The notes beneath the pieces are model-generated. The model saw only the letters and a program-made list of their open reading frames with translations, did not search any database and was not told the origin of the DNA. The position numbers were made by a program, and so were the translations under genes. DNA of 64,000 bases from Saprospiraceae bacterium (GTDB taxonomy: Bacteria > Bacteroidota > Bacteroidia > Chitinophagales > Saprospiraceae): contig JAIPBE010000002.1 in the NCBI GenBank assembly GCA_021738725.1, positions 1-64,000 on the forward strand, written 5' to 3'. Shown here one piece after another: positions 24,796-42,286 of the stretch (the stretch's first letter is position 1; each line of letters begins with the position of its first letter).

Positions 24796-25041
24796 ATGAC
24801 TGCTATTAAAGATTCTGTAAAAACATACTTGCTGGAGGAGCTGAATCTTCCGTTGACTTCGGAAGAATTGGGTGATGATACCCCCTTATTGAGTAGCCGT
24901 TTGATCGACTCGATCTCCGCCCTGCTTCTGGTGGAGTTCCTGGAAAAAGAATTCAAAATCGAATTCAAACCTCATGAGGTCAATAATGACAATCTGGATT
25001 CCCTTCAGCTGATCGAACAATTCGTCCAGGGCAAGCAATAG
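24796..25041 (+). CDS. Acyl/peptidyl carrier protein of the halopyrrole-type cluster
   Basis: An 81-aa four-helix carrier protein. The attachment Ser is Ser39 in LIDSISALLL, which fits the (D)S(I/L) phosphopantetheine motif, and the acidic face (EELNLP, DDTPLL, EFLEKEF) is typical. It is the first gene of a five-gene plus-strand cluster and ends 5 bp before the adenylation enzyme, so it is most likely the carrier loaded by that enzyme. This corresponds to the stand-alone prolyl carrier proteins of pyrrole pathways (PltL-like). It is not the fatty-acid carrier AcpP, whose motif and neighbours differ. Confidence 0.85.
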   Translation: MTAIKDSVKTYLLEELNLPLTSEELGDDTPLLSSRLIDSISALLLVEFLEKEFKIEFKPHEVNNDNLDSLQLIEQFVQGKQ

Positions 25042-25046
25042 CCAGA

Positions 25047-26576
25047 ATGAATGAACTTCGAATCCTCATTGAGCATGCCCTGACAAAACATGCTGCTCAG
25101 ATCGCTTTAGTCGAGGAATCGGGTGATCAATTGTCCTACCAGGATCTTGACGTAAGCAGTGCCGGCGTCGCCCATCATCTTCAAGATAACGGAGTTGGTC
25201 AAGGACAATGTGTCGCCATCTGTATTCCCAAGTCTTCCGTTTCGGTAGCATGCCTGCTGGGGGCTCTGAGAAGCAATGTAGCTTACATTCCGCTTGACCC
25301 GGATGCACCTGCCAGCCGAAATGGGTATATCGTTCGCGATGCCACGGCTTCTATGGTTTTGACGACACGTGACTTTGCGAATGTCCTCCTTCCCCATATC
25401 GGATCATGTCAAGTACTTGATATCACCGTCCTCAGTGAACCATGCAAACTGCTGGTCCGCCCCCAAGTAGAAGACAAAGTCGTGAGCATTCCAGATGACC
25501 TGGCCTACATCCTCTATACATCTGGATCCACAGGTCAGCCCAAAGGGGTCATGATCACGCATCGCAATGCAACATGCTTTGTCCGATGGGGCATTGACCT
25601 ATTCCAACTTCGTTCTTCTGATGTACTCTCATCCATTGCTCCCTTTCATTTCGATCTATCTGTATTTGATCTGTATGCCGGATTGGGAAGTGGTGCAAAG
25701 ATCCTCCTCATCCGGCCAGAATCGGTTAAAAATCCGATGATCCTGGCCGAATTCATCGACCAGTTTGCCATCACGATATGGTATGCCACTCCGACCACCC
25801 TGAAAATGATGCTTCGATTTGGACGGATGAACCGGTATCACCACTCTTCACTTCGCCACATACTGTTTGCTGGGGAAGTCTTTCCGTTAGCGCCGCTGAA
25901 TGATTTGCGCTCGCGCTGGTCACATGCGGCCTTTCACAACCTGTATGGCCCTACAGAGACGAATGTGTGTACCTACTTCTCCCTTCCCAGGGAGATCGAT
26001 CCGACACAGGAGAAACCCTTCCCGATCGGAGCGTCCTGTCCATATGCCCAGTGTTTTATCGATGATGGTACATCCATATGCCCGCCCGAACCAGGCATGG
26101 TCGGTGAGTTGCTGATCGCTGGTGATTCTGTGATGGCGGGCTATCTGAACCAACCTGAACGCAATGCAAAAGCATTGCTCGTACATGATCACAACCGATG
26201 TTACCGAACCGGGGATATCGTTCAGTACGATCAGGGAGGCCAATTGCATTACATCAGCCGGAAAGACAGGATGGTCAAACGACATGGCAACAGGATCGAA
26301 CTAGGTGAAATAGAAGCGGCTTTACATGAACATCCTGAGATTACAGAGGCCGGCGTTTTCCACACCATTGCCGGAGCGGATCACAGTGAAATCAGGATCG
26401 TCGCCTGTTATGCAACAGTTGATCCGGATCAACAGCTGGCAGTTTCCAAATTGCAAACATTTCTTCAGCAATATGTACCGTCATACATGCTGCCTGACAA
26501 ATTTGTTTATTTGGCTACCATGCCCAAGACCAGCACACATAAAGTCGATTATACCGCGTTGAAAGAGAATTCCTAA
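25047..26576 (+). CDS. Stand-alone amino acid adenylation enzyme, proline-type (PltF/RedM-like)
   Basis: A 509-aa ANL-family enzyme that activates an amino acid as the adenylate and transfers it to the carrier protein. Core motifs are A3 LYTSGSTGQPKG (157-167), A4 FHFDLSVFD (200-208), A5 NLYGPTETN (298-306), A7 YRTGD (386-390), and A10 ending with Lys499. By aligning to GrsA by eye, the nine variable specificity residues are D203, L204, F207, Y246, L273, A275, L299, V307, C308, giving DLFYLALVC. From memory the L-proline enzymes PltF and RedM read DLLYLALVC, a single difference. The likely substrate is therefore L-proline. There is no condensation or carrier domain attached. It sits between the carrier gene (5-bp gap) and the flavin dehydrogenase (14-bp gap). 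Confidence 0.85.
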   Translation: MNELRILIEHALTKHAAQIALVEESGDQLSYQDLDVSSAGVAHHLQDNGVGQGQCVAICIPKSSVSVACLLGALRSNVAYIPLDPDAPASRNGYIVRDATASMVLTTRDFANVLLPHIGSCQVLDITVLSEPCKLLVRPQVEDKVVSIPDDLAYILYTSGSTGQPKGVMITHRNATCFVRWGIDLFQLRSSDVLSSIAPFHFDLSVFDLYAGLGSGAKILLIRPESVKNPMILAEFIDQFAITIWYATPTTLKMMLRFGRMNRYHHSSLRHILFAGEVFPLAPLNDLRSRWSHAAFHNLYGPTETNVCTYFSLPREIDPTQEKPFPIGASCPYAQCFIDDGTSICPPEPGMVGELLIAGDSVMAGYLNQPERNAKALLVHDHNRCYRTGDIVQYDQGGQLHYISRKDRMVKRHGNRIELGEIEAALHEHPEITEAGVFHTIAGADHSEIRIVACYATVDPDQQLAVSKLQTFLQQYVPSYMLPDKFVYLATMPKTSTHKVDYTALKENS

Positions 26577-26590
26577 TCGGCTGCAGATCC

Positions 26591-27730
26591 ATGTATTCAT
26601 TCACCCCCGATCCCGACCAGAAAAAACTACGCCAGGAAATCCTGGAGGCAGTCGCTTCCCTCCCTGGAGTATACAACGGTGGTACTTCCGGCTTCGATCG
26701 GGAAAGATGGACACGTCTTGGCGCCGTCGGAATCCCCGGGTTGGCCATTCCTGAAGTATATGGTGGCAAAGGATGTAATGCCCTCTCCACCACCATTGCG
26801 TTGGAGGCACTTGGATATGCGCATCCGGATAACGGTTTCAATTTTTCTGTGGCCGCTCATTTGTTGGCTTGTGTGGTTCCGCTTTGGCTCTATGGCTCAG
26901 AAGAGTTGAAAACGCGATACCTGCCCGGACTGTGCAATGGTTCACTGATTGCTGCAAATGCCATGAGCGAGCCCTCTTCAGGGTCTGATGCTTTCAGTAT
27001 GAAAACTACCGCCCAGACGTCAGATGCAGGATACTCGATAACGGGATCAAAGACATTTGTCAGCAATGGTCCGATCGCCGATGTCGTATTACTTTATGCC
27101 GCGACTGATCCAACACAAGGATTCATGGGCGGGATCAGCGCGTTTTGGGTTGATAGACAATTTCATACCTATGCGCGTAGCGAGCCTCTTGAGAAGGCAG
27201 GTCTGCATCACAGCCAATTAGGCAGTCTCTTCTTTGAAGAGATGCACATTGAATCTAAATATATGGTTGGATCTGAAGGCAGAGGCGCACATCTGTTCAA
27301 CCGATCTATGGAATGGGAGCGAACCTGTCTGGGTGGACTACACATTGGCAACATGCATCGCTTGATAGATCGATGTGTCCGGCATCTGCGGGCAGGATTT
27401 CAACAAGGATGGTCACGAGAGGCCCATCAAATGGCCACTTATGACCTCGCCATCATCCAAACCCAACTGGAAGCGGTGCGATTGCAGGCATATGTAGCTG
27501 CCTGGAAGATCGATCTAGGAAAGCCGGCGGGCCGCGAATCTGCCATGGCCAAACTGGCTGTCAGTGACCTCTATCAACGAGCCACTTTACGTATAGCAAA
27601 CATTTACAACGAATGCGGTGTTCAGGATCTAGATGCAGATCAATCGGTCCTGGATGCACTCAGTAGCACCCTTTATTCCGGTACTTCCGAGATGCAGAAA
27701 ACGATCATTGCCCAGTCGATGGGTCTGTAA
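26591..27730 (+). CDS. Acyl-CoA dehydrogenase-like flavoenzyme, probable prolyl-carrier oxidase (PltE/RedW-like)
   Basis: A 379-aa protein of the acyl-CoA dehydrogenase fold: N-terminal helical domain, the AMSEPSSGSDAFSM flavin-binding strand (124-137), the beta-domain phrase KTFVSNGPIADVVLLY, and the C-terminal helical domain ending with YSGTSEMQKTIIAQ (typical of the flavin pocket). The catalytic base is expected in SMEWERT (Glu241 or Glu243). Next to a proline-type adenylation enzyme and a carrier, its predicted reaction is the four-electron oxidation of prolyl-carrier to pyrrole-2-carboxyl-carrier, as with PltE and RedW. An unrelated acyl-CoA dehydrogenase is less likely because no other fatty-acid genes are near. 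Confidence 0.82.
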   Translation: MYSFTPDPDQKKLRQEILEAVASLPGVYNGGTSGFDRERWTRLGAVGIPGLAIPEVYGGKGCNALSTTIALEALGYAHPDNGFNFSVAAHLLACVVPLWLYGSEELKTRYLPGLCNGSLIAANAMSEPSSGSDAFSMKTTAQTSDAGYSITGSKTFVSNGPIADVVLLYAATDPTQGFMGGISAFWVDRQFHTYARSEPLEKAGLHHSQLGSLFFEEMHIESKYMVGSEGRGAHLFNRSMEWERTCLGGLHIGNMHRLIDRCVRHLRAGFQQGWSREAHQMATYDLAIIQTQLEAVRLQAYVAAWKIDLGKPAGRESAMAKLAVSDLYQRATLRIANIYNECGVQDLDADQSVLDALSSTLYSGTSEMQKTIIAQSMGL

Positions 27731-27751
27731 CATATGAGTCAAATTTTCAAT

Positions 27752-27783
27752 TTGATCCTTATGGCACTACTATTGTTTATTTG
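27752..27783 (+). promoter_or_regulatory. Possible internal promoter before the halogenase
   Basis: In the 73-bp gap between the dehydrogenase and halogenase genes, TTG (27752-27754) is followed after 21 nt by TTTATTTG (27776-27783), one mismatch from TAnnTTTG. It could give separate expression of halogenase and methyltransferase. Confidence 0.32.
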
Positions 27784-27803
27784 CGAATTGAATAATTAAG
27801 CCC

Positions 27804-29153
27804 ATGAAAAAGGACGTCATTATCATCGGTGGGGGCCCCACAGGCAGCAGCTTAGCCATAAATCTGGCCAGAGAAGGCCTTGATGTTCAAATCCTGGAAA
27901 AAGCCAAATTTCCCAGGGAGCATGTCGGCGAATCCATGCTACCCTATTGCTACCATATCTTCGAGGAGTTGGGCGTATTGGACAAAATGAAGCAGAACTT
28001 TTCGCGAAAACCGGGGGTCACTTTTTCCAATCCGGATGGTAGTCAAGCCTCTCACTGGTGCTTTGACAAGGTGGTGGATGGGCCATCCAGCCTTTCTTTT
28101 CATGCCAGAAGATCCGAATTTGATCAGATGATGCTGGACCATGCCCGATCAGAAGGCGTTGACGCTCAGGAAGAAATGCAAGTCATGGATGTTGACCTCA
28201 ATGCGCCTGGTGGAGGTGTCCTGGTGAAAGCCTTGCATCAAGGAAATAAAGAGGTTGAGATTTCAGGGCGATTCCTCGTTGATGCAACAGGACAGGATTG
28301 TTTTCTGTCCCGAAAACTGGGCAACCAAAAGCGATTCGAAACCCTGAATATCCGATTGGCATTGAGCGCCCATTGGACGGACGTCAAATTGACGCCGTCA
28401 CTGGCCAATGGAAATATCACCATTGTACATATTGGAGGAGAGAAGTCCGGTTGGATTTGGCTGATCCCACTGAATGATGATCGCCTCAGTATCGGGCTTG
28501 CCATAAATATGGATTATGCTCAGGAACAGCGGAAGTCACTGATGAAAGAGCATGGGGTTCGTAATTGGCAGAAAGAACTCTACCTGCAAGAAATCAATAA
28601 CGCTCCTCTGGTTAAGGAAATTATTCAGAATGGATCTATGGCCTGGGAAGTGGTCAGTAATGGAGACTTCTCCTATTATGCAGAAGCCAAATTTGGTCCC
28701 AATCATGCGATTTTGGGTGATGCTGCGGCATTCCTGGACCCTATCTTCTCCAGTGGCATCTTTTTGGGCATGCATAGCTCAAAAACAATAGCCCCAGGGA
28801 TCGTCGCCATGCTACAAAAAGGAGACCCGTCTTTGATTGAATCCGGTTATAAAAGTCTTGAGGGAGGTTATCGTGTGATTGAAGAATTGATCTCTGCGTT
28901 TTACGATCCTGAAGCCATCAACTTCCCAGAGCTTTCAGTTTCTGACGGAATGGACTTCAACCAAATGGAATCAGCATATACCGTGTATCATATGCTTTTG
29001 GCTGGTGATTTCTTTAATGACAGCGAGCGATACTTGAAAGCGATCAGTGCCCTTCGGGATTCCTCCATGATCGAGAAATACAAGAATCTGAAAGGTCATG
29101 CAGATGAGGATTCCAAAAAACTTGTGTGTGCGATAAACCCCATTCTTGCTTGA
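27804..29153 (+). CDS. Flavin-dependent halogenase, PltA-like
   Basis: A 449-aa FAD protein with the dinucleotide motif IIGGGPTGSS (7-16), the halogenase-type KFPREHVGESMLP (35-47), the WxWxIP motif at 217-222 (WIWLIP), and GDAAAFLDPIFSSG (305-318). The last two are the segments shared with pyrrole halogenases such as PltA. Lys69, in NFSRKPG, is the likely catalytic lysine that carries the chloramine or guides hypohalous acid. These enzymes chlorinate or brominate electron-rich rings on a carrier protein, using FADH2 from a separate reductase; no reductase gene is in the cluster. The C-terminal part is typical of the phenol/pyrrole group rather than tryptophan halogenases. The stop overlaps the methyltransferase start by one base. 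Confidence 0.85.
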   Translation: MKKDVIIIGGGPTGSSLAINLAREGLDVQILEKAKFPREHVGESMLPYCYHIFEELGVLDKMKQNFSRKPGVTFSNPDGSQASHWCFDKVVDGPSSLSFHARRSEFDQMMLDHARSEGVDAQEEMQVMDVDLNAPGGGVLVKALHQGNKEVEISGRFLVDATGQDCFLSRKLGNQKRFETLNIRLALSAHWTDVKLTPSLANGNITIVHIGGEKSGWIWLIPLNDDRLSIGLAINMDYAQEQRKSLMKEHGVRNWQKELYLQEINNAPLVKEIIQNGSMAWEVVSNGDFSYYAEAKFGPNHAILGDAAAFLDPIFSSGIFLGMHSSKTIAPGIVAMLQKGDPSLIESGYKSLEGGYRVIEELISAFYDPEAINFPELSVSDGMDFNQMESAYTVYHMLLAGDFFNDSERYLKAISALRDSSMIEKYKNLKGHADEDSKKLVCAINPILA

Positions 29154-29884
29154 TGGACAACGTAAACTATGGTGAATATTGGGATAGGTTCTATCACGCA
29201 ACTTATCAACAACAACCTGGAGGCAAAGCACTCTGGGATGTACCCGTACATCGTTCGGCAGCGCTTGATCTCGTAGAGATGGATCACACGCTGCCGAAGG
29301 AACTACCTCTTCTGGATGTCGGATGTGGCACTGGGGAGATCGCCTCTTTCTTTACAAAGCACTTTCCGAAGGTCATCGGCGTGGATGTTGCCCAGGGAGC
29401 AATTGATATTGCTATAGAAAGGCAGACAGACGCACATATAGACTTCAAGATCCTCGACATCACAGATGCCACTTCTTGTCTGGCACTATCTGAACAGTAT
29501 GGCCCACTGAACATTTACATCCGTGGGGTCATGCATCAGGTTGAAGAGAACCATCTTCCTCAATATGTCAACAATCTGGAGACACTTCTCGGTGGGAAAG
29601 GTGTGCTGTATATGATCGAAGTGGCCTCCGGCATTCGGGACCATTTCCTGCACCACTCCGAAGGATATCATAAGCTGCCAGCTGCAGTTCAGAAGATCTT
29701 CATCAGCAATCTACCTCCGCGGGGCGTTACTGTAGAAGGCATTGCCACACACTTTCCACCCAATAGATTCGAAATTCTGAAATCGAATCCCGAAAAACTC
29801 TTTACGAATTTGCAATCCCCGGATGGCATGGAGATCTACATTCCTGCGGTCCAGGCCATTATAAAGGCTAAAAAGTTCTCTTAG
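29153..29884 (+). CDS. Class I SAM-dependent methyltransferase of the halopyrrole-type cluster
   Basis: A 243-aa Rossmann methyltransferase with motif I LLDVGCGTGE (about 45-54), the acidic strand VIGVDVAQGA, and motif II-like DFKILDITDA. The start at 29153 is chosen because its ATG overlaps the halogenase TGA (TGATG), implying translational coupling; a longer start at 29126 would lie within the halogenase. The substrate is unknown. In context it may methylate the pyrrole carboxylate (releasing an ester), the ring nitrogen, or a hydroxyl. It closes the cluster; a lipoprotein with its own promoter-like element follows after 37 bp. Confidence 0.8.
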   Translation: MDNVNYGEYWDRFYHATYQQQPGGKALWDVPVHRSAALDLVEMDHTLPKELPLLDVGCGTGEIASFFTKHFPKVIGVDVAQGAIDIAIERQTDAHIDFKILDITDATSCLALSEQYGPLNIYIRGVMHQVEENHLPQYVNNLETLLGGKGVLYMIEVASGIRDHFLHHSEGYHKLPAAVQKIFISNLPPRGVTVEGIATHFPPNRFEILKSNPEKLFTNLQSPDGMEIYIPAVQAIIKAKKFS

Positions 29885-29921: not shown

Positions 29922-30296
29922 ATGAAAAGGTCCCTATTTTATTTCGCCTTTATGGTGATCGCCCTTGTTTTTGTCGCTTGTTCCGACTCTGCCCCTGCGA
30001 CTGAAGGCTCAGAAGCAGAAGCTCCTGCAGCAGAAGCACCTGCTGCCGCTGAACGCAATGTCAATCAAGACAATCCAGCAGAGCGTATGCTGAGCAAATA
30101 CCAATCAATGGGTCTTGAGCTCACGGAAGAGCAGGCCGCTAGTGTCCGCACAATCGCTGGTCAATATGACTTCTCAGCAACAACTGATAAGAGTGCCCGC
30201 CAGGACATGCGCACCAAAATGCAAAAGGAGATTATGGACAATGTCCTGACGCCTGAGCAAAAGGCAACTTTTGAAGCAAGTCGCAAGAAGCGATAG
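29922..30296 (+). CDS. Small lipoprotein with an LTEEQ/VLTPEQ helical unit
   Basis: A 124-aa exported lipoprotein. A signal peptide ends in the lipobox FVAC (Cys20). A low-complexity Ala/Glu/Pro stretch follows (25-45), then a helical domain (55-120). The domain opens with SMGLELTEEQ and closes with EIMDNVLTPEQ; paired LTxxQ motifs recall Spy/CpxP-like periplasmic chaperones, although spacing and sequence are not typical. The same 50-residue unit occurs twice inside the GT-C-like protein encoded at 32571-35978. It lies between the halopyrrole-type cluster and the glycan operon, with a terminator about 80 bp downstream, and has no recognised function. Confidence 0.7.
   Translation: MKRSLFYFAFMVIALVFVACSDSAPATEGSEAEAPAAEAPAAAERNVNQDNPAERMLSKYQSMGLELTEEQAASVRTIAGQYDFSATTDKSARQDMRTKMQKEIMDNVLTPEQKATFEASRKKR
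30108..30260 (+). repeat. VLTPEQ unit, copy C (in the lipoprotein)
   Basis: Residues 63-113 of the lipoprotein, a 51-residue segment beginning MGLELTEEQ and ending NVLTPEQ. It lines up with two 50-residue segments of the membrane protein encoded on the other strand at 34215-34364 and 33960-34109. Confidence 0.55.
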
Positions 30297-30376
30297 TCTA
30301 CCGAATTACCCATTCTTGTCCGAACTCCATCGCCAGGCTTTTTCCGGATGGCGGGACAGGTGAACAGGTGCTTACG

Positions 30377-30419
30377 AAAGCCCCTGACAGATCATTGATG
30401 TGTCAGGGGCTTTTCCTTT
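30377..30419 (+). terminator. Intrinsic terminator, shared with the end of a convergent gene
   Basis: A perfect 13-bp stem (30377-30389 with 30401-30413) with an 11-nt loop, followed on the plus strand by TTTTCCTTT-like bases. It ends the plus-strand transcript of the lipoprotein. Its right arm also spells the last codons (Lys-Pro-Leu-Thr-His-Gln) of the opposite-strand GT4 gene, whose stop is in the loop. Confidence 0.75.
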
Positions 30420-31513
30420 CTGAGGGATAACAGCTCCAATAAAAGTGCCTGATACTGTCGAACAGACTCGGATAATGGAAACTCTCTGATCGGTTTCTCC
30501 TCCCATTGGTTGTTCCAGGCCTGTTGGAGAGCCTGACTGACACCATCAATGGTCAATGAATCGATCCCGACCATCTTTCCACCCACCACTTCCTTCAACG
30601 CCGTTCGCTCAGAAGAAATGATCGGCACTCCCAAGCCGACTGCTTCCGCCGCGACAAAACAAAATCCCTCGCTGTAAGACGGAACCACAATACAGGTGGA
30701 TGTAGCCACCTCATTGTACAGGTCCTGCTGGGGCAGATCGTGATAGAGCATGACTCGGTCTTTTGAAGGCCACCTGTTCACCTGGCCCATCACCCATCTG
30801 TAGAGGGCCTCAGGTACTTGGGGAATGATCAGTTTGAACTGCGCCTCCGGATGATCCTCCAGGAATCGGGCCATAGCCGGCAGGAGGAGGTCCAGTCCCT
30901 TTGAAGTACCCAAACGACCAAAATAGGTGACTGTAAATTCGGATGGAGGCTGGTGTTTGTATCCTAGAAACTTATGATAATCCAGGCCGTTATAGATCAT
31001 GGAGATCCTGGTCGAGCTGATACCACTATGCCGGAGGGCCTGCGCAGTTGCGTTGGACACTGCGATAAACCGATCAAACGGCAATCGCAATAACAATTGT
31101 TCCCACATCCAGTATGCCCCTTTCAACCAAAGTGGGGTTTGGGGAAGTCGCCACCACAATCCGGCCCATACTTCATGGAAGGTCACAACGACTGGCTTCC
31201 TTCGAAATTTAGCCGCAAAAAATGCAGGAAAGGCCGCATTATATGAGGTCGTCTGCACCAGATCAGCTTTCCCAGCCTCTTCCAATACCTTGGGAAAACT
31301 GAGAAATGAAAAGAGGTACCGATTTCGGCAATCTACCCGAATGACCTTGACCCCATCAATCATTTCTGTCGAAGGCAGGTCTGGACGAAATCTTGTCGTG
31401 ACAACCGTCACCTGGTGTTCCTTTTCGATCAAGGCCCGGGACAACTCCCAAAACAAATGTTCCGCTCCTCCGATATAGGGATAGAAATGCTCCAGTACAA
31501 AAAGAATCCTCAC
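30392..31513 (-). CDS. Family 4-type glycosyltransferase
   Basis: A 373-aa GT-B glycosyltransferase. It starts ILFVLEHFYPYIGGAEHLFWELSRAL (acceptor-side glycine loop), and has TYFGRLGTSKGLDLLLPAM in the donor domain and PSYSEGFCFVAAEAVGLGVPII, which is the EX7E-type catalytic segment. Such enzymes transfer an activated sugar to a glycan acceptor on the cytoplasmic side. The start overlaps the stop of the DUF2304 gene by 4 bp. It is the last gene of the glycan operon, and the final residues are encoded by one arm of the terminator hairpin at 30377-30413. Confidence 0.87.
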   Translation of the reverse strand: MRILFVLEHFYPYIGGAEHLFWELSRALIEKEHQVTVVTTRFRPDLPSTEMIDGVKVIRVDCRNRYLFSFLSFPKVLEEAGKADLVQTTSYNAAFPAFFAAKFRRKPVVVTFHEVWAGLWWRLPQTPLWLKGAYWMWEQLLLRLPFDRFIAVSNATAQALRHSGISSTRISMIYNGLDYHKFLGYKHQPPSEFTVTYFGRLGTSKGLDLLLPAMARFLEDHPEAQFKLIIPQVPEALYRWVMGQVNRWPSKDRVMLYHDLPQQDLYNEVATSTCIVVPSYSEGFCFVAAEAVGLGVPIISSERTALKEVVGGKMVGIDSLTIDGVSQALQQAWNNQWEEKPIREFPLSESVRQYQALLLELLSLRKEKPLTHQ

Positions 31514-31860
31514 TGCCCCTTCTGCTTTTCTTCTTCATCAAGAGCAAGTCTTCTGGTCAAGGCGGTCAAGGCAGATTGCTGCTGTTTGAACAAAAGGAAG
31601 AGCTTGTATTGAAAGAAAAATATCAGTCCCAGACAAAAGAAAATAACCGCATTGATATTGCTTTTGATCCCGAAAACTTCGGCAATCGTCTGGGAAATAA
31701 GATCTGGGAAAAAGGCAAAAAAGATAACAGCGACCCAAAAGAATACGCCCACCATCGCTTCCTGCCAACCGGACTTACCGGCCCAGAAACGCTGCAATAA
31801 ACTGCTGATAAAAACAATGGAAACAAGCGGTACAATGATTTGATATAGTTCCAGCTGCAT
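31510..31860 (-). CDS. DUF2304 membrane protein
   Basis: A 116-aa protein with three membrane helices (about 5-24, 36-56 and 68-90) and a charged C-terminal tail (KQQQSALTALTRRLALDEEE). The size, the topology and the position right after a family 2 glycosyltransferase gene fit DUF2304, a family that regularly accompanies polyprenyl-phosphate sugar transferases; the biochemical role is unknown. It lies 7 bp after the GT2 gene and overlaps the next GT4 gene by 4 bp. Confidence 0.8.
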   Translation of the reverse strand: MQLELYQIIVPLVSIVFISSLLQRFWAGKSGWQEAMVGVFFWVAVIFFAFFPDLISQTIAEVFGIKSNINAVIFFCLGLIFFFQYKLFLLFKQQQSALTALTRRLALDEEEKQKGQ

Positions 31861-31867
31861 GATGGTA

Positions 31868-32560
31868 TTATTTGGGATGTGAGACTAATTTCCAGAGGAT
31901 GTTCATGGCCGTGTTGATACCCATATACAAGTCCTGTCCTTTGCTCATAGAATATGCCGTGTAAACAACGCGAATGGGCACTTCGGCGATCTTCAACCCT
32001 TTTTTCTCACCCAGGATGATCATCTCGCTGCAATAGCCAAAGCCGTCTATATGCAAATCAATTGTCTCGATGGCAGTCCGGTTAAGCATCCGAAATCCAG
32101 ACTGGGTATCCGAATACCAGCGAATACAAAACCAGTTGGTGAAGACATTCGACAACTTGTTGTATATCACCCGGATAGCCGGAATATCCTTATTTGGTCT
32201 CATAAAGCGACTTCCAATCACAATATCCGCTTTCTCCTCTTCCATGGCATCACTCAAGCCACGAATATCTTCAGGATAGTGTTGCCCATCTGCATCGATC
32301 TGCACGATAAAGGCGATCTGATGCTTTCTTGCATATGCAATGCCCGTTTGAGCACCTGCACCAGCTCCGCGATTGACGAGATGAGAAACCACGATGGCCC
32401 CGGCCTTTCTCGCCTCTTCACATGTTTGATCGGCAGAGCCATCGTTGATTACGAGGACATACGGATAGCCTTCATCCCTGACGCGACGTACCACATCAGC
32501 AATGACCGTACCTTCATTATAGGCCGGAATCACAACCAGTATGTCTTTAGGCTCGATCAT
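31868..32560 (-). CDS. Family 2 glycosyltransferase (polyprenyl-phosphate mannosyl/glucosyltransferase type)
   Basis: A 230-aa soluble GT-A enzyme: LVVIPAYNEGTVI (9-21), VINDGSADQTCEEA, and the metal-binding QIDADGQHYPEDI around residue 90. It lacks membrane helices. The dolichyl-phosphate mannose synthase-like group makes lipid-linked single sugars, which GT-C enzymes then use as donors outside the membrane. This fits the GT-C-like gene 10 bp upstream and the DUF2304 gene 7 bp downstream. Confidence 0.88.
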   Translation of the reverse strand: MIEPKDILVVIPAYNEGTVIADVVRRVRDEGYPYVLVINDGSADQTCEEARKAGAIVVSHLVNRGAGAGAQTGIAYARKHQIAFIVQIDADGQHYPEDIRGLSDAMEEEKADIVIGSRFMRPNKDIPAIRVIYNKLSNVFTNWFCIRWYSDTQSGFRMLNRTAIETIDLHIDGFGYCSEMIILGEKKGLKIAEVPIRVVYTAYSMSKGQDLYMGINTAMNILWKLVSHPK

Positions 32561-32570
32561 TCAGGTTTAC

Positions 32571-35500
32571 TCAATTCTCCATTTTCGTGGCTAATTCAAA
32601 TAGGATAAACGTTCCAGGAACAGTTGTTTTACCCCCCAACCCTGGTTTGCCGGGCCATACTTTGTCACCTACTTTTGTAGTCGGCACAGCCGGATCTTCA
32701 ATGAAGTTATCTGTATAGATTGGCGTAGCCAGGGGCGAGTCAAAGAGAAGCATCAATACCTCATCTGCCTTTTTCGCCAACGTCTGCTCCGGTGTCAAAT
32801 CTGTTCCTGCCAGGTTGACGTTGTACAACACATATTTGAACCCGTTGTCTATGAGCTTTCGAATAAAATCATTTTTATCCGTCATTTTTTTACTGAGCTC
32901 CATATAGATCCCTAACTGATTGTCCTCCAGAACACGTTTGTCATTCTGAAGAATATGGTAGTTGAGGTGGGTACCGATCCGATAGATCTTGGTGGACGGA
33001 TCTTCATTCATCTTTTGGATCGCCTCCGCCATGTACGGTCGGAATAATCCGAGACTCTTTTCAGCTGTCATGTTTGAAGATGCATACTGCAGGAAGGGCG
33101 ACTGGAATATGAGCCTAGCCCCATCCTGATTTTGCGTCGCACTGACCAGAAAGAGGGACAGGCAAAGCACCATCGATGTGCCAACCGCGATGCGCCACCA
33201 TTTCGTCAATAGAGCCTTGGGCAACTCGGGATACCATTCATGCAGGTGATCTGTCAGCCAGATGATCAGGAGGAAGCCCATCATAAACAGAATGAATCCA
33301 TACCAGATGATGGTATTACTGAAGAAAAACCACAACCCTCCGAAGGCCAGAGTGATCACAAAGAAGTTACCGAACGCTTCTGGGAGACGGGCAATTTTTT
33401 CCCTCATCAACCAGGCTGCCAGGCCGAATAGGACCAGGATGATGATATAGGTTTGGAGAAAACTCCAGTCGGCCATCCACTGATACAGGGCATTGAGGCT
33501 ATTGCCGAGACTGACGAGCATCGTTTGTAACGGTATAAAGATCATTCCCGGCAATGCCGCCAAACCACTTAAGGGTTCTCCCATCTGACGGAGAATGCTA
33601 TCATGCAATAACGCAGGATCCAACCGGGTGTCCAGGGGATACAATGACAAGACAGAGATTAACCACAAACCCAGGAATCCCAGAGCGACGATGACATTGC
33701 GATACCAGGTTCGTCCAAAGAACAAAAATGGTAAGAGCAGAAGAAACAGAAAGGAAATATCCAGGTATCGAGAGAACGGAATATTCATATTCATCGTCAT
33801 ATCATACGGAACAGAAAAGTAGAGAGGGGCGCCGGCTTCAAAGCCGAGGTACCGCCGGATCTCCTCCCGCTTCGTGCCCCCGAAAAAGGAGGCTTTCACC
33901 GGATGTTTCCCGAGCGCCTGTGCCAATGCACCCTGCTTTTTACCCGTGGCCGCTTCATATTGCTCACTGGTCAGAACCGTATTGAAGATATCCTGTCGCA
34001 ATGTGGCCAATCGTTTTCGACGCTCCATCTGATCTTCGACCATGACATCATTCCCCCGCAGCAATGAAACCACCTTGTTTTTTTGTTCAGAATCCAATGA
34101 AATACCTCTTCGCTTGAGGCTTTCAATAATCAATTCACAACCCATGGAGATGTCTTCCTCCATAGCGTCGTAATCCAATCCAAACTGATTGATGGACGAT
34201 TCGGAGATCTGCCTTTGTTCTGGTGTCAGCACATTCTGAATGATCTGATCTCGAGCCAGTTGTGATTGTGCTTCCACACTGGAAGAATCTGTTTTACCAG
34301 TGATGGTTTGGGTGAGAATTTGATCTGAAATTTGTCGTTGCTGCGCGTTCAGCTGCACGCCCATATTTTCCAGAGAGCTGTACAGCACACGCTTTTGGAA
34401 TTCCACCATCGATTCCTCACCCTTATCATCTAGATTCGCATCCAGGAGAGCGGTGGGGTTACGGCCAACCAGCAGGTTGTTGACACTGACGGTTTGATGT
34501 TCTGAAACGTTCTTGACCATCCAGGGTGAAAACGACAAAAGAGCAGCCAGAGCGAACCCGCCAATGGCCATTCCGATTGGAGCCAAACCCTTTGGACTGC
34601 GGATCGCCGCCCAGACCAGAAGTGGCAGTCCCAGCCCGAACCCGATCATCGCGAAGATGGTAGGGGGAGTATCGCCGAGTTCCATATAGCCAAACTGGTC
34701 GATGCCAACGAGAAATAATCCACCCAGGGCGGTGAAGAATAATCCCGCCGCTCCGCGCCATCCCCATTGCCAACGAAACAACATGGCCATTAAACCGATC
34801 ATGAACATGACGGCAGTATACTTGATCCCGAAGGCATATCCGCTCAACCATCCGGCGAGGATCCAGGGTAACCATTGAGGAGATGCTCCCTTCTGATTTG
34901 AACCAGACGCATCCTCTGGCGCACCAGCCGGCTGCCGCATATCCAGCAGCAAGAGAATGGCCGTCAGCAGGATAAACAAAAAACCTAGGTCGACTTTGGC
35001 ATCATGAGCCGCGTGAAACGAAAACGCCGGATTGACATAAAACAATGCCACGGCCAACCAGGAGCTTTGCTTGTTCAGGACGGTGCGCGCCAGACGGTAA
35101 AAGGCGAATACACAGAGAAGCATGGCACTGTGAGACAACATGATGGAGACAGATACCGACTGAAACATCAACTCACCAAGACTGGTCCATAATGGCCAGC
35201 CATCGGCTTGCCCGCCGGCTATCAATCCTCCATATTGAGCGATCAAATGAGACCGGTTCATGTACAGACTGACAGCATCAAACCCGATCGGAAAGGCTTT
35301 CAAAGCCGTGACTTGGTTGAAGGCTACCGCGATCAACAACATCATGATCGGGATGATCCCCCACCCGGAGGTCACTCCTTTTTTGATGGGCGCCCAAAAG
35401 AACTGTTTTAACACGTCCATCACCATGCGGTAACGTAAGGCTACTGGTAAGAGCGTGAGCCCCCATAACACCCATGTATTCAGGCCACCCAACATACCCA

Positions 35501-35978
35501 GTATCACCAGAACAAATCCGGTGACACTCAAGCCGACGGCCAGATTGATCACCATGGTATTCTCCTTCCTGATCCCGGATGGGAGAAGCCTCATCAGACT
35601 GTCACCAATCGCGATTTGAACCAGAAATAAATATGCGACAGCACTGTGAATGAACAGGTTAAAGCCAAGGAAATAAGGTATGTGCGTTGCTGCACTATCG
35701 GAAAAAACCTTTTCTCGCGAAGCATACATCAGGAAGATCACCATTTCCAGAAACAGGACAAAGGCATAGATCATCCAACCCCTGACAGGGGTTTTTCTGG
35801 ACCGCAAGATCCACCAGGCACCACAAGCAAGTCCAACCAAAACCACCAGAATGCTCACATTCGGCAGGTCCTGAATGACCAGACCGTAATAAGGATGAAA
35901 TCCCCAATAACTAAAAAGCACCAGGATGGTCCAGATCGCTCCGAACCCGATTATCAGCCATTTATTTACATTTTCCAT
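32571..35978 (-). CDS. Large GT-C-like membrane glycosyltransferase with soluble VLTPEQ insertion
   Basis: A 1135-aa multi-pass protein with about 12 N-terminal membrane helices in residues 1-490, a soluble insertion (about 495-735), more helices (about 738-930) and a soluble C-terminal domain (about 945-1135). The first external loop after the eighth or so helix (PIGFDAVSLYMNRSHLIAQYG, from 230) carries Asp234 and resembles GT-C enzymes such as ArnT/PMT relatives that use lipid-linked sugars, but I cannot place it in a named family. The insertion contains two copies of a 50-residue unit ending VLTPEQ/VLTSEQ at residues 539-588 and 624-673. It is the third gene of the glycan operon, 70 bp after GT4 and 10 bp before GT2, which probably supplies its donor. 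Confidence 0.72.
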   Translation of the reverse strand: MENVNKWLIIGFGAIWTILVLFSYWGFHPYYGLVIQDLPNVSILVVLVGLACGAWWILRSRKTPVRGWMIYAFVLFLEMVIFLMYASREKVFSDSAATHIPYFLGFNLFIHSAVAYLFLVQIAIGDSLMRLLPSGIRKENTMVINLAVGLSVTGFVLVILGMLGGLNTWVLWGLTLLPVALRYRMVMDVLKQFFWAPIKKGVTSGWGIIPIMMLLIAVAFNQVTALKAFPIGFDAVSLYMNRSHLIAQYGGLIAGGQADGWPLWTSLGELMFQSVSVSIMLSHSAMLLCVFAFYRLARTVLNKQSSWLAVALFYVNPAFSFHAAHDAKVDLGFLFILLTAILLLLDMRQPAGAPEDASGSNQKGASPQWLPWILAGWLSGYAFGIKYTAVMFMIGLMAMLFRWQWGWRGAAGLFFTALGGLFLVGIDQFGYMELGDTPPTIFAMIGFGLGLPLLVWAAIRSPKGLAPIGMAIGGFALAALLSFSPWMVKNVSEHQTVSVNNLLVGRNPTALLDANLDDKGEESMVEFQKRVLYSSLENMGVQLNAQQRQISDQILTQTITGKTDSSSVEAQSQLARDQIIQNVLTPEQRQISESSINQFGLDYDAMEEDISMGCELIIESLKRRGISLDSEQKNKVVSLLRGNDVMVEDQMERRKRLATLRQDIFNTVLTSEQYEAATGKKQGALAQALGKHPVKASFFGGTKREEIRRYLGFEAGAPLYFSVPYDMTMNMNIPFSRYLDISFLFLLLLPFLFFGRTWYRNVIVALGFLGLWLISVLSLYPLDTRLDPALLHDSILRQMGEPLSGLAALPGMIFIPLQTMLVSLGNSLNALYQWMADWSFLQTYIIILVLFGLAAWLMREKIARLPEAFGNFFVITLAFGGLWFFFSNTIIWYGFILFMMGFLLIIWLTDHLHEWYPELPKALLTKWWRIAVGTSMVLCLSLFLVSATQNQDGARLIFQSPFLQYASSNMTAEKSLGLFRPYMAEAIQKMNEDPSTKIYRIGTHLNYHILQNDKRVLEDNQLGIYMELSKKMTDKNDFIRKLIDNGFKYVLYNVNLAGTDLTPEQTLAKKADEVLMLLFDSPLATPIYTDNFIEDPAVPTTKVGDKVWPGKPGLGGKTTVPGTFILFELATKMEN
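33960..34109 (-). repeat. VLTPEQ unit, copy B (in the GT-C-like protein)
   Basis: Residues 624-673, a 50-residue segment beginning RGISLDSEQ and ending NTVLTSEQ. Its length equals that of copy A and is one less than the lipoprotein copy. Confidence 0.55.
34215..34364 (-). repeat. VLTPEQ unit, copy A (in the GT-C-like protein)
   Basis: Residues 539-588, a 50-residue segment beginning MGVQLNAQQ and ending QNVLTPEQ, preceded by SLEN as copy B is preceded by SLKR. It matches copy B and the lipoprotein copy at both ends. Confidence 0.55.
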
Positions 35979-36048: not shown

Positions 36049-37233
36049 CTAGTGTGGTGGTACAGAATGGATTGACTCCTGATCCGATGGAGCTTCTCCC
36101 ATCCAAAGAGCCTTCAATCTCTGGATAAATTCACGAGCATGGATATCCCAACCAAATGCTGCAGCGCGCTCCAGACAAGCCATCCTTAACTGGATGCTAT
36201 CCCGGTCCGGGAGATGAGCCAATTGGATCATACTTCCAGCAATGCTTTTTTCATCCAGGGGGTCGACATACCAGGCCGTATCTCCGCCCACCTCCGGCAG
36301 GCTGGATACATTTGAACAGATGACAGGACAACCGCAGGCAAATGCTTCCAGAACAGGCAGTCCGAAGCCTTCATATTCCGATGGATAAACCAATCCAATT
36401 GCAAGGGAATACAATGCCGTCAGCTGATGCTGGGAAACGTACCCCGTCAAGAGAATATCCGCTCGAAAAGGATGGTGTTCCAGCGCTTCAAAAAAAGGTT
36501 CAGATTTCCAACCGCGCTCACCGACAATGACCATACACACTCTTGCATCATGGCTCTCTCGGAAAAGCCGATAAGCCTCTAATAATCGGACCAGGTTCTT
36601 TCGGGGCTCAATGGTTCCTACTGCCAACCAAAATGGTGAGGTGATCTCTAAATTCTTCAATACTGCCGTATCCTCTACACGCTGCATAGACGGGTCATAT
36701 CCCAATAATATCGATGCCACTTTACCTCGGGTAAACGGAAAAAAACGACGGATATCGTCGGCTGTATAGGTTGAATTGGCGACAATGAGCGATGCTTTGG
36801 ATAAGATCCTTTTCAAGAAAATACGTTGTAACCATTGGCTGTGGAACCGATGATACTGCGGAAAGAGCAAGGGCGTCAAATCATGAATGACCGTCACCCG
36901 CTTGATTCGTTTGGGAAGATTGAATGGTCCGAAATGGGCCGGTTCGATCACCGCATCCACCCGGTTCCACCAGAGAATGAATGGCACGATCAGAAAGAGT
37001 CGTACCGCAGCCAATCCAAGCCCGATCCGGATATTGGGGATTACGATCTGACGCATACCTTGCAAATGAGGATCTCTTTTTTCACGCAACAGGAGAAACT
37101 CCAGATCTCCCGGAGAGGCGAGGAGCAGGCCCTTGACCAATTCACGTGTATAGACATGCACACCCCCCTTCTGATTGTCGATGGAATCAGCAATAATGGC
37201 GATACGCTTCTTATGATGCATGGTCTGAGTCAT
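36049..37233 (-). CDS. Family 4-type glycosyltransferase
   Basis: A 394-aa GT-B enzyme. It begins RIAIIADSIDNQKGGVHVYTRELVKG, a glycine-rich acceptor loop, and the donor domain has VGTIEPRKNLVRLLEAY, LTGYVSQHQLTALY and PSEYEGFGLPVLEAFACGCPVI (EX7E). The closest relative in the window is the C-terminal half of the sulfotransferase fusion upstream (EPRKNL and EGFGLPxLEA in both), so these two may add successive, similar sugars. Its start codon overlaps the stop of the fusion gene by 4 bp. It lies 70 bp before the GT-C-like gene. Confidence 0.88.
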   Translation of the reverse strand: MTQTMHHKKRIAIIADSIDNQKGGVHVYTRELVKGLLLASPGDLEFLLLREKRDPHLQGMRQIVIPNIRIGLGLAAVRLFLIVPFILWWNRVDAVIEPAHFGPFNLPKRIKRVTVIHDLTPLLFPQYHRFHSQWLQRIFLKRILSKASLIVANSTYTADDIRRFFPFTRGKVASILLGYDPSMQRVEDTAVLKNLEITSPFWLAVGTIEPRKNLVRLLEAYRLFRESHDARVCMVIVGERGWKSEPFFEALEHHPFRADILLTGYVSQHQLTALYSLAIGLVYPSEYEGFGLPVLEAFACGCPVICSNVSSLPEVGGDTAWYVDPLDEKSIAGSMIQLAHLPDRDSIQLRMACLERAAAFGWDIHAREFIQRLKALWMGEAPSDQESIHSVPPH

Positions 37234-39287
37234 GAGCGTTCACCGATATCAGCCCGATTCGATTCGATGATCTGCTGATAGATATTCAAGGTTTGAAAGG
37301 CCGTCTTCAACCAGGAGAAATACCATGATCTCTCCAGTGCCTTTTGTCCCAATTCCTGGCGGAGGCTTGCATCGTCAACCACTCTGGCCATACATCTGGC
37401 AATATCCTCCGGTTGTGAAGGGTCTGCAGGTAACCCACCCTGTGCGATGATTTCAGGCATCGCGCTATTCTGACCGTAGATCACCGGTGTTTGGCAACGC
37501 ATGGCCTCCAGAGGAGGAAGGCCGAATCCCTCATAATACGCTACATAGCAAAGCGCTAAAGCATGGTGGTACAACAGGGGAAGGTCGTCATCCAGGACAT
37601 GTCCTGTAAATATGATCCGATCGAATCCAGGTGCTCGGGCATCTGCCAAATCCTCTAACTTCCACCCTCTCCGTCCGCAAATAACCAGGTAAACATCAGC
37701 ATACCGAGGATCTTTGGCAAGAGACAGAAATGCCTGGATCACATGTTTGAGATTTTTTCGTGGCTCCAGAGTAGACAGGCTGATCAGATATGACCCTAGA
37801 GGGAGTCCGTAACGATGTCGGATCTCATTCCATTCCTCTTCGTTCTGCTGTGGCCTGAAACGATCGCCATTGGCAGCCTCATAAACAGTGTGGATACGAT
37901 CCGCCTGGATGCCATATACCTGGATGAGATCCTGGCGGGTGCATTCTGAAACAGCGATCACGGCACTCGCTTTTTCACGGATGAAATCCATCCCTTTTTC
38001 GGCCAGATCGATGTTTTCCTTTTCGTGATATTCCGGAAAGAAATGGTGGGTCAGATCATGTGCCGTCACCACGAAGGGCAGTTTGAATGGCTCCACCAGG
38101 AAGGCATGCTGAGGCAGTGGAACATGCATCAGTTGATGGTTCCTGCCCGCTTCCTTCCACACCTTCCGGTATTGTTCTTTGATGGTGCCTCCCCGAATCC
38201 AACTCAGTACCCTTCGTACTGGCAGGTCCCGATAGATAGGACTCAACCGGTTGTACCAGGACTCCGGAAGTGTCTTCTGAATGAACGCTTTGAAGGCTAG
38301 AAGAGACTGTTCAAAAAAACCTTTTTTCAAAGCGAATAAGCCCAGCTGCCTTTTTTCCGCCTCCCGGCGTTCGATGATCTTGCCATAATATTGGTCCAAT
38401 GGAAAGATCTTGCCGTTGACCAGTACATCGATACGCCACTTGTCAGGAAGGCGATGCTGAAACGCCCGAAGCCCCCCGATCAACTCCTCTGTATACCGAC
38501 GAATCCCATCCATATGCAGGTCCGTCATCTTGTTCCCTTCGATTAGAATGCGGTATGGGTCAATGACACCCGATGCCTTCTTTTCTGCCCAGGCTTCCCC
38601 GATCGGACCTCTGGTGTATCCCATCTGGTCCATCACTTCGCCATGCAAATCCCAGAACAGAGCCTCCAGCTCGGGAGGCATTTCATCTTTCCATCCACCT
38701 GCAACGCCCCGTCTGAAGTTCTTTTTAGCCAGGCGAGCCACTTCATCTGAATCGACTTGTGCAACCCCGGCTCCATAGTGCGGCGTTCCAAACTTCAAGT
38801 CCTTGAAGGTGGGCAGCTTATCCAGATTGGGTTCCCCCAGATCCATAAACTCACGCAGTTTCTCAATCTCTCGAATAGGGTCCGCAATCAAATCTTCAAA
38901 ACGGATCACGACGTCGGCTACTTCTGTCCAGGCTTTGACATTTTCAGACCAGCCCCCGAAAAAGCTCCCATCCATGGCCAGGATGGCTTCCAGTAAATTG
39001 AGCTCGTAGTCAGTGCCCGGCTGGACGATGTCTTTTCGATGGTGCGCGATGGAGACCAGCGCGTCGCGCCCTTCCCGTACGATGTAGACCTTTTTTATGG
39101 ACGGATCGGAGGGAACCAGTTGGTGTGGTAGAAGATGGGTCTTGATCACCGGATAGGTCGCATAATCCGGTTCCAGGGGATAGTTGACCTCCTGGTGATA
39201 GGTGCTGGACTCAATACCATACACCTCATAGAGCACATTCCGAAAGAATGTGTTCCCAGAACGCGGAAAGGAAGCGAGCCAGATCAT
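37230..39287 (-). CDS. Fusion of a PAPS sulfotransferase and a family 4 glycosyltransferase
   Basis: A 685-aa two-domain enzyme. Residues 1-235 are a sulfotransferase: the 5'-phosphosulfate loop is SFPRSGNT (6-13), the 3'-phosphate motif is VYIVREGRDALVS (67-79, Arg71 and Ser79), and GGWKDEM lies near the end. Residues about 255-685 are a GT-B glycosyltransferase with MDGIRRYTEEL, STLEPRKNLKHV and YEGFGLPPLEAMRCQTPVI (EX7E). It would transfer a sugar and sulfate the product, using PAPS in the cytoplasm. The start at 39287 gives MIWLASFPRSGNT directly; earlier codons up to 39467 read poorly and lie upstream of a good -7 element at 39343-39350. It is the first gene of the six-gene glycan operon. 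No PAPS synthesis gene is in the window. Confidence 0.85.
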   Translation of the reverse strand: MIWLASFPRSGNTFFRNVLYEVYGIESSTYHQEVNYPLEPDYATYPVIKTHLLPHQLVPSDPSIKKVYIVREGRDALVSIAHHRKDIVQPGTDYELNLLEAILAMDGSFFGGWSENVKAWTEVADVVIRFEDLIADPIREIEKLREFMDLGEPNLDKLPTFKDLKFGTPHYGAGVAQVDSDEVARLAKKNFRRGVAGGWKDEMPPELEALFWDLHGEVMDQMGYTRGPIGEAWAEKKASGVIDPYRILIEGNKMTDLHMDGIRRYTEELIGGLRAFQHRLPDKWRIDVLVNGKIFPLDQYYGKIIERREAEKRQLGLFALKKGFFEQSLLAFKAFIQKTLPESWYNRLSPIYRDLPVRRVLSWIRGGTIKEQYRKVWKEAGRNHQLMHVPLPQHAFLVEPFKLPFVVTAHDLTHHFFPEYHEKENIDLAEKGMDFIREKASAVIAVSECTRQDLIQVYGIQADRIHTVYEAANGDRFRPQQNEEEWNEIRHRYGLPLGSYLISLSTLEPRKNLKHVIQAFLSLAKDPRYADVYLVICGRRGWKLEDLADARAPGFDRIIFTGHVLDDDLPLLYHHALALCYVAYYEGFGLPPLEAMRCQTPVIYGQNSAMPEIIAQGGLPADPSQPEDIARCMARVVDDASLRQELGQKALERSWYFSWLKTAFQTLNIYQQIIESNRADIGERS

Positions 39288-39342
39288 GAACGGTTTTTTG
39301 GGTGTCACTTTGAGAATGCAAAAACTCAGCCACACCCCGTTA

Positions 39343-39350
39343 CAAATGTA
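39343..39350 (-). promoter_or_regulatory. -7 promoter element of the glycan operon
   Basis: TACATTTG on the minus strand matches TAnnTTTG perfectly, about 55 bp before the chosen start at 39287. The surrounding sequence is AT-rich. No TTG is present at 20 nt upstream. Its position supports the shorter start of the sulfotransferase fusion. Confidence 0.42.
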
Positions 39351-39540
39351 AAATATTTTAATACTTATAGATCGCAGATCCGCCGGGACAACCGGGATGC
39401 CAGGAAGGCTGAACATTAGTGCTTTATCAGAGAATGGGGTCCAAGCGAGCGCATCAAGCCCTGTCAATAAGAATCAGCAGTCATGCTGAACCCATTCAAA
39501 TGGCAATACCAATCCTCCTCTCATCTCTGGCTTATGGCAC

Positions 39541-42238: not shown

Positions 42239-42286
42239 TTGCTTTGCCCCCTGTTCCAGCTTTCGACCAGATCTAATCAGCATGCC

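Follow-up and report, generated by a model that had tools for sequence, protein, structure and literature searches.

The window analyzed here, a 64,000-nucleotide stretch of DNA from a Saprospiraceae bacterium within the Bacteroidota (assembly GCA_021738725.1, contig JAIPBE010000002.1, positions 1 to 64,000), encodes a small lipoprotein and, on the opposite strand, a glycosyltransferase of the GT-C fold that carry homologous copies of one helical unit. The unit is present once in the lipoprotein and twice in a linker between the two transmembrane halves of the GT-C, and it is related to the LTxxQ proteins, which are known as stress chaperones and sensors. The occurrence of an LTxxQ unit both as a partner at the locus and as an insert in an active-site-proximal loop of the GT-C points to a new role, that of an accessory subunit of periplasmic glycan transfer. 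In the little-studied Bacteroidota host of this enzyme, the sharing of one domain by lipoprotein and GT-C suggests that the two act jointly. The genes and units concerned are as follows:

29922-30296, plus strand: LTxxQ lipoprotein gene (124 amino acids), an intact open reading frame (ORF) with signal peptide, lipobox VACS and low-complexity linker, then the unit
30072-30293, plus strand: Spy/CpxP-like four-helix unit of the lipoprotein (residues 51-124), delimited by the model and the unit profile; the residues noted earlier (63-113) fall within it
32571-35978, minus strand: GT-C glycosyltransferase gene (1135 amino acids), an intact ORF with a GT-C-fold model
33750-34520, minus strand: predicted periplasmic linker of the GT-C (residues 487-743) between the two transmembrane halves, with both unit copies and then EExxRYxGYExGxPLYxSLPYD (residues 705-726)
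34188-34409, minus strand: GT-C unit copy 1 (residues 524-597; helices 524-538, 545-560, 568-582 and 586-597; motifs LNAQQ and LTPEQ)
33945-34157, minus strand: GT-C unit copy 2 (residues 608-678; helices 608-623, 630-643, 650-668 and 671-678; motifs LDSEQ and LTSEQ)

A preliminary description of the window had placed three similar segments, of 51, 50 and 50 residues, at lipoprotein residues 63-113 (30108-30260, plus strand) and at GT-C residues 539-588 (34215-34364, minus strand) and 624-673 (33960-34109, minus strand). These positions and lengths are exact. Of the endings ascribed to the segments, N-x-VLT holds for GT-C copy 2 alone (NTVLTSEQ), the other two reading N-VLTPEQ, and the unit exceeds the 50 residues first noted, comprising about 70 residues in four helices. 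When the 4.18 Mb genome was searched with the lipoprotein as a single sequence, the search returned GT-C copy 1 as the second-best match with a marginal E-value (0.023). A hidden Markov model (HMM) built from seven lipoprotein units, with no GT-C sequence inside, recovered both copies in the window's GT-C (2.1e-4 and 4e-8), those of the GT-Cs in genomes G004 (1.7e-8 and 4e-4), G002 (5.5e-6 and 4.7e-6) and G003 (8.9e-5 and 1.2e-4), the GT-C of G005 (0.003) and, weakly, that of G001 (8.4 and 0.015). Conversely, among 1781 stop-to-stop ORFs, HMMs of GT-C copy 1 and GT-C copy 2 each recovered all seven lipoprotein ORFs (1.2e-10 to 5.1e-5 and 3.1e-9 to 9.2e-6, respectively), and the lipoprotein-unit HMM matched at E < 4 only lipoproteins, GT-Cs and three small ORFs that occupy the syntenic lipoprotein position in other genomes.

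A pooled profile was searched in 60 relatives. In the five genomes of the genus (G000-G004), its matches at E ≤ 0.1 comprised only the lipoprotein, which is present on two contigs in G003, and the two GT-C copies; because the pooled profile holds these same units, this result shows exclusiveness and not independent detection. One LTXXQ-family protein that exceeds the Pfam cut-off is encoded on another contig of the same genome and is missed by the pooled profile at E ≤ 0.1. The similarity thus extends beyond chance, with profiles that work in both directions between lipoprotein and GT-C units and that are specific, rather than no better than for unrelated helical proteins. A chance likeness of helical, Gln/Glu-rich segments is barely credible: the segments are indeed short, helical and compositionally biased, and the single-sequence E-value is modest, but the reciprocal profiles already refute chance, the matches are exclusive, and two models predicted independently of each other show an equal order of helices. 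The lipoprotein and GT-C genes are not joined by any DNA repeat, direct or inverted. This rules out recent gene conversion or DNA duplication and indicates that the sharing of the unit is old. A candidate third copy at GT-C residues 1062-1066 (DLTPEQ) was rejected, being part of a family-wide C-terminal DxTPExSLxKK motif that also occurs in unit-free homologs.

The predicted structure of the lipoprotein comprises four helices (residues 52-62, 69-80, 90-107 and 111-123), with block means of the predicted local distance difference test (pLDDT) of 92-97 across residues 51-120, falling to 87 over the four C-terminal residues. Its motifs LTEEQ (67-71) and LTPEQ (109-113) lie where helices begin, at residues 69 and 111. 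The GT-C copies keep the second motif (LTPEQ and LTSEQ) and have a degenerate first motif (LNAQQ and LDSEQ), and in the full GT-C model each copy is predicted to form four helices in the order seen in the lipoprotein, with moderate pLDDT. A family profile of lipoprotein relatives searched against PDB sequences matched Spy best (E 1.5e-4), and Spy was likewise the first NCBIfam match of the lipoprotein (7e-7, under its cut-off). Against Pfam LTXXQ (PF07813) the lipoprotein scored 21.0 bits and missed the cut-off of 24.3; the family was matched at E ≤ 1 by 8 of 18 lipoproteins (best 5.6e-4), and the GT-C linker searched alone gave no LTXXQ match. A plain Foldseek search with the lipoprotein model returned nothing at E ≤ 0.001. 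A second comparison, over 160 ranked PDB chains, placed Spy, the STV protein 5io8/5ihf and CpxP at ranks 1-10 (Z 6.9-8.8), with Spy 6bie at Z 8.8, a value under the caution level of the tool (63 residues, 2.1 Å, 30% identity), 5io8 at Z 8.7 and CpxP at Z 6.9.

Collectively, these observations bear out the proposed relationship to Spy and CpxP, Spy being the best match by family profile as well as by structure. The unit is a divergent Spy/CpxP-like LTxxQ four-helix mini-domain, a fold class that is shown for the lipoprotein and that the GT-C copies may share; since the Pfam cut-off was missed, we class it as Spy/CpxP-like and not as a member of the Pfam family. Like Spy, CpxP and the STV protein, the lipoprotein is exported and all-helical and has two LTxxQ motifs that each open a helix. 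Unlike them, its unit is shorter (about 70 residues), anchored to lipid through a lipobox, under the Pfam cut-off and linked to glycan genes, and copies of the unit sit inside a membrane enzyme. Spy has been described as having two LTxxQ motifs and a cradle surface that holds substrates (PMC4791398). In the fold comparison of the GT-C, residues 607-680 (copy 2; 33939-34160, minus strand) also align to 3g6i (Z 5.5, 70 residues), an outer membrane protein of Bacteroides thetaiotaomicron said to belong to a putative carbohydrate-binding complex; this may be a mere helical-hairpin match.

The GT-C protein matched no Pfam family, and a profile of its family matched no PDB sequence at E ≤ 1. Its model (pLDDT 85.7, predicted template modeling score 0.81) nevertheless places it among GT-C enzymes: in a second look, rows 1-45 were all of the GT-C fold by title (Z 7.6-13.8), with ArnT first (Z 13.8, 414 residues, 4.8 Å) and AglB at Z 13.2. 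Asp234, in the first outer loop, is invariant in 41 of 41 rows, and Asp330 is invariant too. The fold match and the position of the insert in the linker agree with the earlier claim that the unit is inserted in a GT-C glycosyltransferase. Homologs align at residues 1-510 and 700-1130, with a variable linker between, and both unit copies precede the strongly conserved EExxRYxGYExGxPLYxSLPYD segment, which contains many family-invariant residues. In a sister group, the GT-C is split into two adjacent genes with the break at the linker point, and the second gene opens with a signal-peptide-like stretch in all eight cases looked at (judged by eye). This start of the second gene, the loop charges and the family hydropathy argue strongly that the linker lies on the periplasmic side.

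The linker falls between the ninth and tenth canonical transmembrane helices when the count begins at the helix matched to the start of ArnT. External loop 5 (EL5) of oligosaccharyltransferases occupies that place between helices (PMC7801869), and the two halves of EL5 in PglB have been described as contacting the lipid-linked glycan and the acceptor peptide (PMC6215017). We infer that the linker holds the place of EL5 from a helix count in which the long model helix 389-424 is read as two spans. Like ArnT, AglB, PglB and STT3, this GT-C has the GT-C fold, an invariant Asp in the first outer loop and a C-terminal periplasmic domain. Unlike them, it has six extra N-terminal transmembrane helices (our own count), an LTxxQ insert in an outer loop, no detectable PDB sequence match and a sister group in which it is encoded by two genes.

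The two-gene form was seen at loci L055, L056, L058, L059, L060, L061, L065 and L066, and at 11 further named loci (L107, L109, L111, L114, L115, L117, L118, L120, L121, L124 and L126). A GT-C of two polypeptides would be unusual. In the GT-C tree, 18 two-gene rows form one clade (support of 99 in the Shimodaira-Hasegawa-like approximate likelihood ratio test, SH-aLRT); 21 rows are labeled as split, and the other three are contig-truncated (L127_S and L096_S) or frame-broken (L105_S). Relatives of the GT-C were also observed on contigs labeled Candidatus Dojkabacteria (two contigs of one metagenome-assembled genome) and Candidatus Gracilibacteria (L104, L112 and L128, of which L128, from Gracilibacteria, is broken under translation table 11). 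These may reflect transfer from Bacteroidota or binning error.

Among 60 named loci, which were compiled from a scan of genome contigs and several of which share genomes with G001-G005, 11 encode a GT-C that bears the unit. Two copies were identified at L069, L070, L071 and L074, and one copy at L072, L073, L075, L076, L077, L078 and, weakly, L080. All 11 are confined to one clade (SH-aLRT 99, tree of 65 GT-C rows), for which a single capture is the simplest reading. This suggests that the unit was captured once into the GT-C loop and was later duplicated in this genus. The genomes of L072, L076 and L078, which were not graded for completeness, have the unit in the GT-C and no comparable separate lipoprotein, their remaining matches being at 1e-4 or weaker; the unit in cis in these genomes, versus in trans elsewhere, constitutes a Rosetta-stone pattern. 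In a tree of the units, the GT-C units are placed among the lipoprotein units of this locus and 9 of 10 canonical LTxxQ units stand apart. With 69 columns and 47 rows, this tree is of low resolution and too small to fix direction firmly, and it is only consistent with GT-C units having derived from lipoprotein units. Lipoprotein units from insert-bearing lineages also share with the GT-C units an extra residue in the G-hydrophobic-x-L start (by eye). In Phaeodactylibacter, the lipoprotein and GT-C units show parallel loop shortening by eye, an observation from one lineage that we did not use as evidence.

The neighboring genes in the window are as follows:

31868-32560, minus strand: GT2, polyprenyl-phosphate sugar synthase-like (Glycos_transf_2 3.5e-21; best NCBIfam match PpgS, 4e-55, under its cut-off)
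31510-31860, minus strand: DUF2304 small membrane protein (PF10066 1.3e-17), kept beside GT2 and GT-C across loci
30392-31513, minus strand: GT4 glycosyltransferase that closes the GT-C operon on its 3' side and converges on the lipoprotein gene (synteny)
24796-25041, plus strand: carrier protein (81 amino acids), first gene of the facing operon (PP-binding PF00550 8.4e-6, over cut-off)
25047-29884, plus strand: amino-acid adenylation enzyme, prolyl-carrier dehydrogenase-like protein (PigA/RedW), halogenase-like flavoprotein and methyltransferase, in an order kept in many loci

The lipoprotein and GT-C genes had been described as lying on either side of one operon. Instead, the GT-C is encoded inside a minus-strand operon (sulfotransferase/GT4, GT4, GT-C, GT2, DUF2304 and GT4), and the lipoprotein gene is the last of a facing plus-strand operon, after the genes for carrier protein, adenylation enzyme, prolyl-carrier dehydrogenase-like protein, halogenase-like flavoprotein and methyltransferase. 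GT2 is likely the donor synthase for GT-C, and it is this PpgS-like neighbor that points to a putative polyprenyl-phosphate-sugar donor. The layout resembles that of the mycobacterial and corynebacterial PpgS-Rv3632-Rv3779 galactosamine route, with its polyprenyl-phosphate-sugar synthase, small helper and outside-acting transferase (PMC9671496); PpgS is the best match of GT2 here, DUF2304 is a candidate counterpart of Rv3632, and the portion of that account available to us mentions no LTxxQ protein. The facing operon resembles the systems that make the pyrrole start unit of prodigiosin and undecylprodigiosin (PigA and RedW) in having a carrier protein, an adenylation enzyme and a prolyl-carrier dehydrogenase (PigA 3e-99 and RedW 3e-89, both under cut-off). 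Unlike those systems, it continues with a halogenase-like flavoprotein, a methyltransferase and the LTxxQ lipoprotein, and it lies beside glycosyltransferases.

A separate LTxxQ gene was identified near the GT-C at 18 of the 60 named loci (E ≤ 0.01). Where a pyrrole-type operon was present, 11 of 13 loci had a recognized LTxxQ gene and the other two had a divergent small lipoprotein at the equal position. Association tests were conducted on 39 of the 60 loci, those whose sequence extends 7 kb or more past the GT-C on its downstream side; the loci are related to one another, so the p-values are descriptive. An LTxxQ gene was present at 9 of 11 loci with a pyrrole-type operon versus 4 of 28 others (p = 1.4e-4), and at 13 of 30 loci with a fused GT-C versus none of 9 with a split or broken GT-C (p = 0.018), a class that includes L128 (fragmented on its Gracilibacteria contig under table 11). 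Screening of 396 genomes of the order revealed the GT-C in 44. Nine matches to the lipoprotein profile at E ≤ 1e-15 were detected, all within 7 kb of a GT-C gene, although some of the nine genomes probably supplied rows to that profile; the next best match outside the GT-C was at 2.4e-9.

The lipoprotein is encoded in several arrangements. In G203 and G179 it adjoins GT4a, and the stretch that was read around it shows no pyrrole-type operon; in Dokdonia pacifica (L094) its gene directly precedes the GT-C gene and overlaps its reading frame within one co-directional array. Among cultured taxa, insert and lipoprotein occur together in Phaeodactylibacter xiamenensis, and the lipoprotein is encoded next to a GT-C that lacks the insert in Dokdonia pacifica, Lewinella cohaerens and Neolewinella aurantiaca. 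G003 encodes a carrier protein, adenylation enzyme, dehydrogenase, halogenase-like protein and lipoprotein on one contig apart from the GT-C. Two lipoproteins are encoded in G005: one adjoins the GT-C cassette (L053, 6222-6788, plus strand), and one lies on another contig after halogenase-like and methyltransferase genes; the latter (L207, 2212-2982, plus strand) has a long Pro/Ala-rich stalk and is accompanied by two SGNH-like genes. The recurrent neighborhood and the proximity to GT-C in the order-wide scan support well a functional link between lipoprotein and GT-C. These observations suggest that the lipoprotein is an old neighbor of the GT-C cassette (GT2, DUF2304, GT-C and GT4) that usually ends a pyrroloyl-carrier-protein-type operon.

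The explanation that we favor, with moderate confidence, is that the unit serves the GT-C transfer step as an accessory module in the periplasm. The free unit would be the lipoprotein, encoded beside the GT-C cassette and usually ending the pyrroloyl-carrier-protein-type operon. One GT-C clade would have taken a copy into its periplasmic loop, directly before the EL5-like conserved loop, and the copy would have been doubled in this genus. The unit may sit at the mouth of the active site and there hold or present the acceptor or dock partner LTxxQ domains, with the lipoprotein acting in trans and the GT-C insert in cis. By analogy with Spy, which holds clients on its cradle, both the holding of an acceptor or glycan and LTxxQ pairing are plausible (PMC4791398). 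A more specific version, which we consider less likely than not, is an LTxxQ docking code: the lipid-anchored lipoprotein would be a dedicated GT-C subunit that pairs like with like on the LTxxQ repeats of a substrate-gating outer loop and couples glycan transfer to a pyrroloyl-type substituent or to acceptor delivery. Physical pairing, chaperone action and sensing are candidate properties of the unit. Because related genomes contain both a cis and a trans version, an accessory-subunit role can be tested directly.

Several observations weigh against an accessory module. Among fused loci, a unit in the linker was not significantly associated with an LTxxQ gene (4 of 6 loci with the unit versus 9 of 24 without; p = 0.36), and most fused GT-Cs and all split ones were counted as having neither unit nor lipoprotein. 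Both results count against pairing being strictly required, and the abundance of GT-Cs that lack both suggests that the GT-C reaction can proceed without the module. The strongest association of the lipoprotein is with the pyrrole-type operon, so its primary role could lie there. The linker is hypervariable in sequence and in length (about 30 to 190 residues), and an insert there could be neutral. The inserts were modeled with a pLDDT of about 58-88, and the Z of 8.8 to Spy is, for a small helical protein, below the stated caution level of 13, although the Spy match stands independently since the family profile finds Spy by sequence. Moreover, we infer both the contact between lipoprotein and GT-C and what the unit binds.

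Three other explanations account for parts of these data. The LTxxQ domain could be a common periplasmic building block that a tolerant GT-C linker acquired as a spacer, independently of the lipoprotein. Canonical LTxxQ proteins do occur elsewhere in these genomes, and the range of linker lengths, the non-significant association of the insert with the lipoprotein gene at fused loci, and the three genomes with an insert and no lipoprotein all fit. We nonetheless regard such uptake as rather unlikely, given that the profile matches only these genes in the five genus genomes, that the unit tree, despite its low resolution, sets nine of ten canonical units apart and the GT-C units among the locus lipoproteins, that the extra start residue is common to both, and that the lipoprotein is tied to the GT-C locus. 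Somewhat less probable is a reading in which the lipoprotein serves only the pyrrole-type pathway, as a stress chaperone or sensor like Spy, its proximity to GT-C reflecting joint selection of two operons and the insert being a by-product of duplication. Its near-constant presence at pyrrole-type loci (by profile, or as the divergent small lipoprotein) is what would be expected, as is its position after the halogenase-like gene, directly or past the methyltransferase, in G005 (contig C137), G003 (C66) and G416; against it, the lipoproteins of G203, G179, L100 and the copy on contig C70 of G005 adjoin the GT-C cassette, and no pyrrole-type operon was visible in the sequence read there. Finally, the lipoprotein might be an acceptor or cargo modified by the GT-C or by pyrroloyl transfer machinery, with the insert mimicking it, for example as a pseudo-substrate. 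Recurrent gene linkage and the abundance of Ser, Thr, Ala and Pro in the lipoprotein stalks are compatible with this, but the stalks contain no conserved sequon, conservation resides in the helical domain and not in the stalk, and many loci encode a GT-C and no lipoprotein, which makes it improbable.

A word search of one literature collection, judged by title among the matches listed, found no report of an LTxxQ-glycosyltransferase fusion, and a word search of one collection likewise found nothing on split-gene GT-Cs or on a pyrrole-type pathway in Bacteroidetes. Each part of the combination of a Spy-like domain with a GT-C enzyme is known; within the literature searched, the joint architecture is new.

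Other features of the window adjoin these genes. An 18-bp inverted repeat with a 1-nt gap (30377-30413) is positioned at the convergent junction of the lipoprotein and GT4 genes, where it overlaps the GT4 stop codon and looks like a shared two-way terminator. An ORF at 37230-39467 (minus strand) fuses a sulfotransferase domain (PF00685) to a GT4, and a homolog is encoded upstream of the GT-C at several unit-bearing loci. The plus-strand operon (24796-29884) adjoins glycan genes and two large proteins with weak SGNH/GDSL matches (39713-44809, plus strand), a set that possibly decorates a surface glycan with a pyrrole-2-carboxyl-type group, which may be halogenated.

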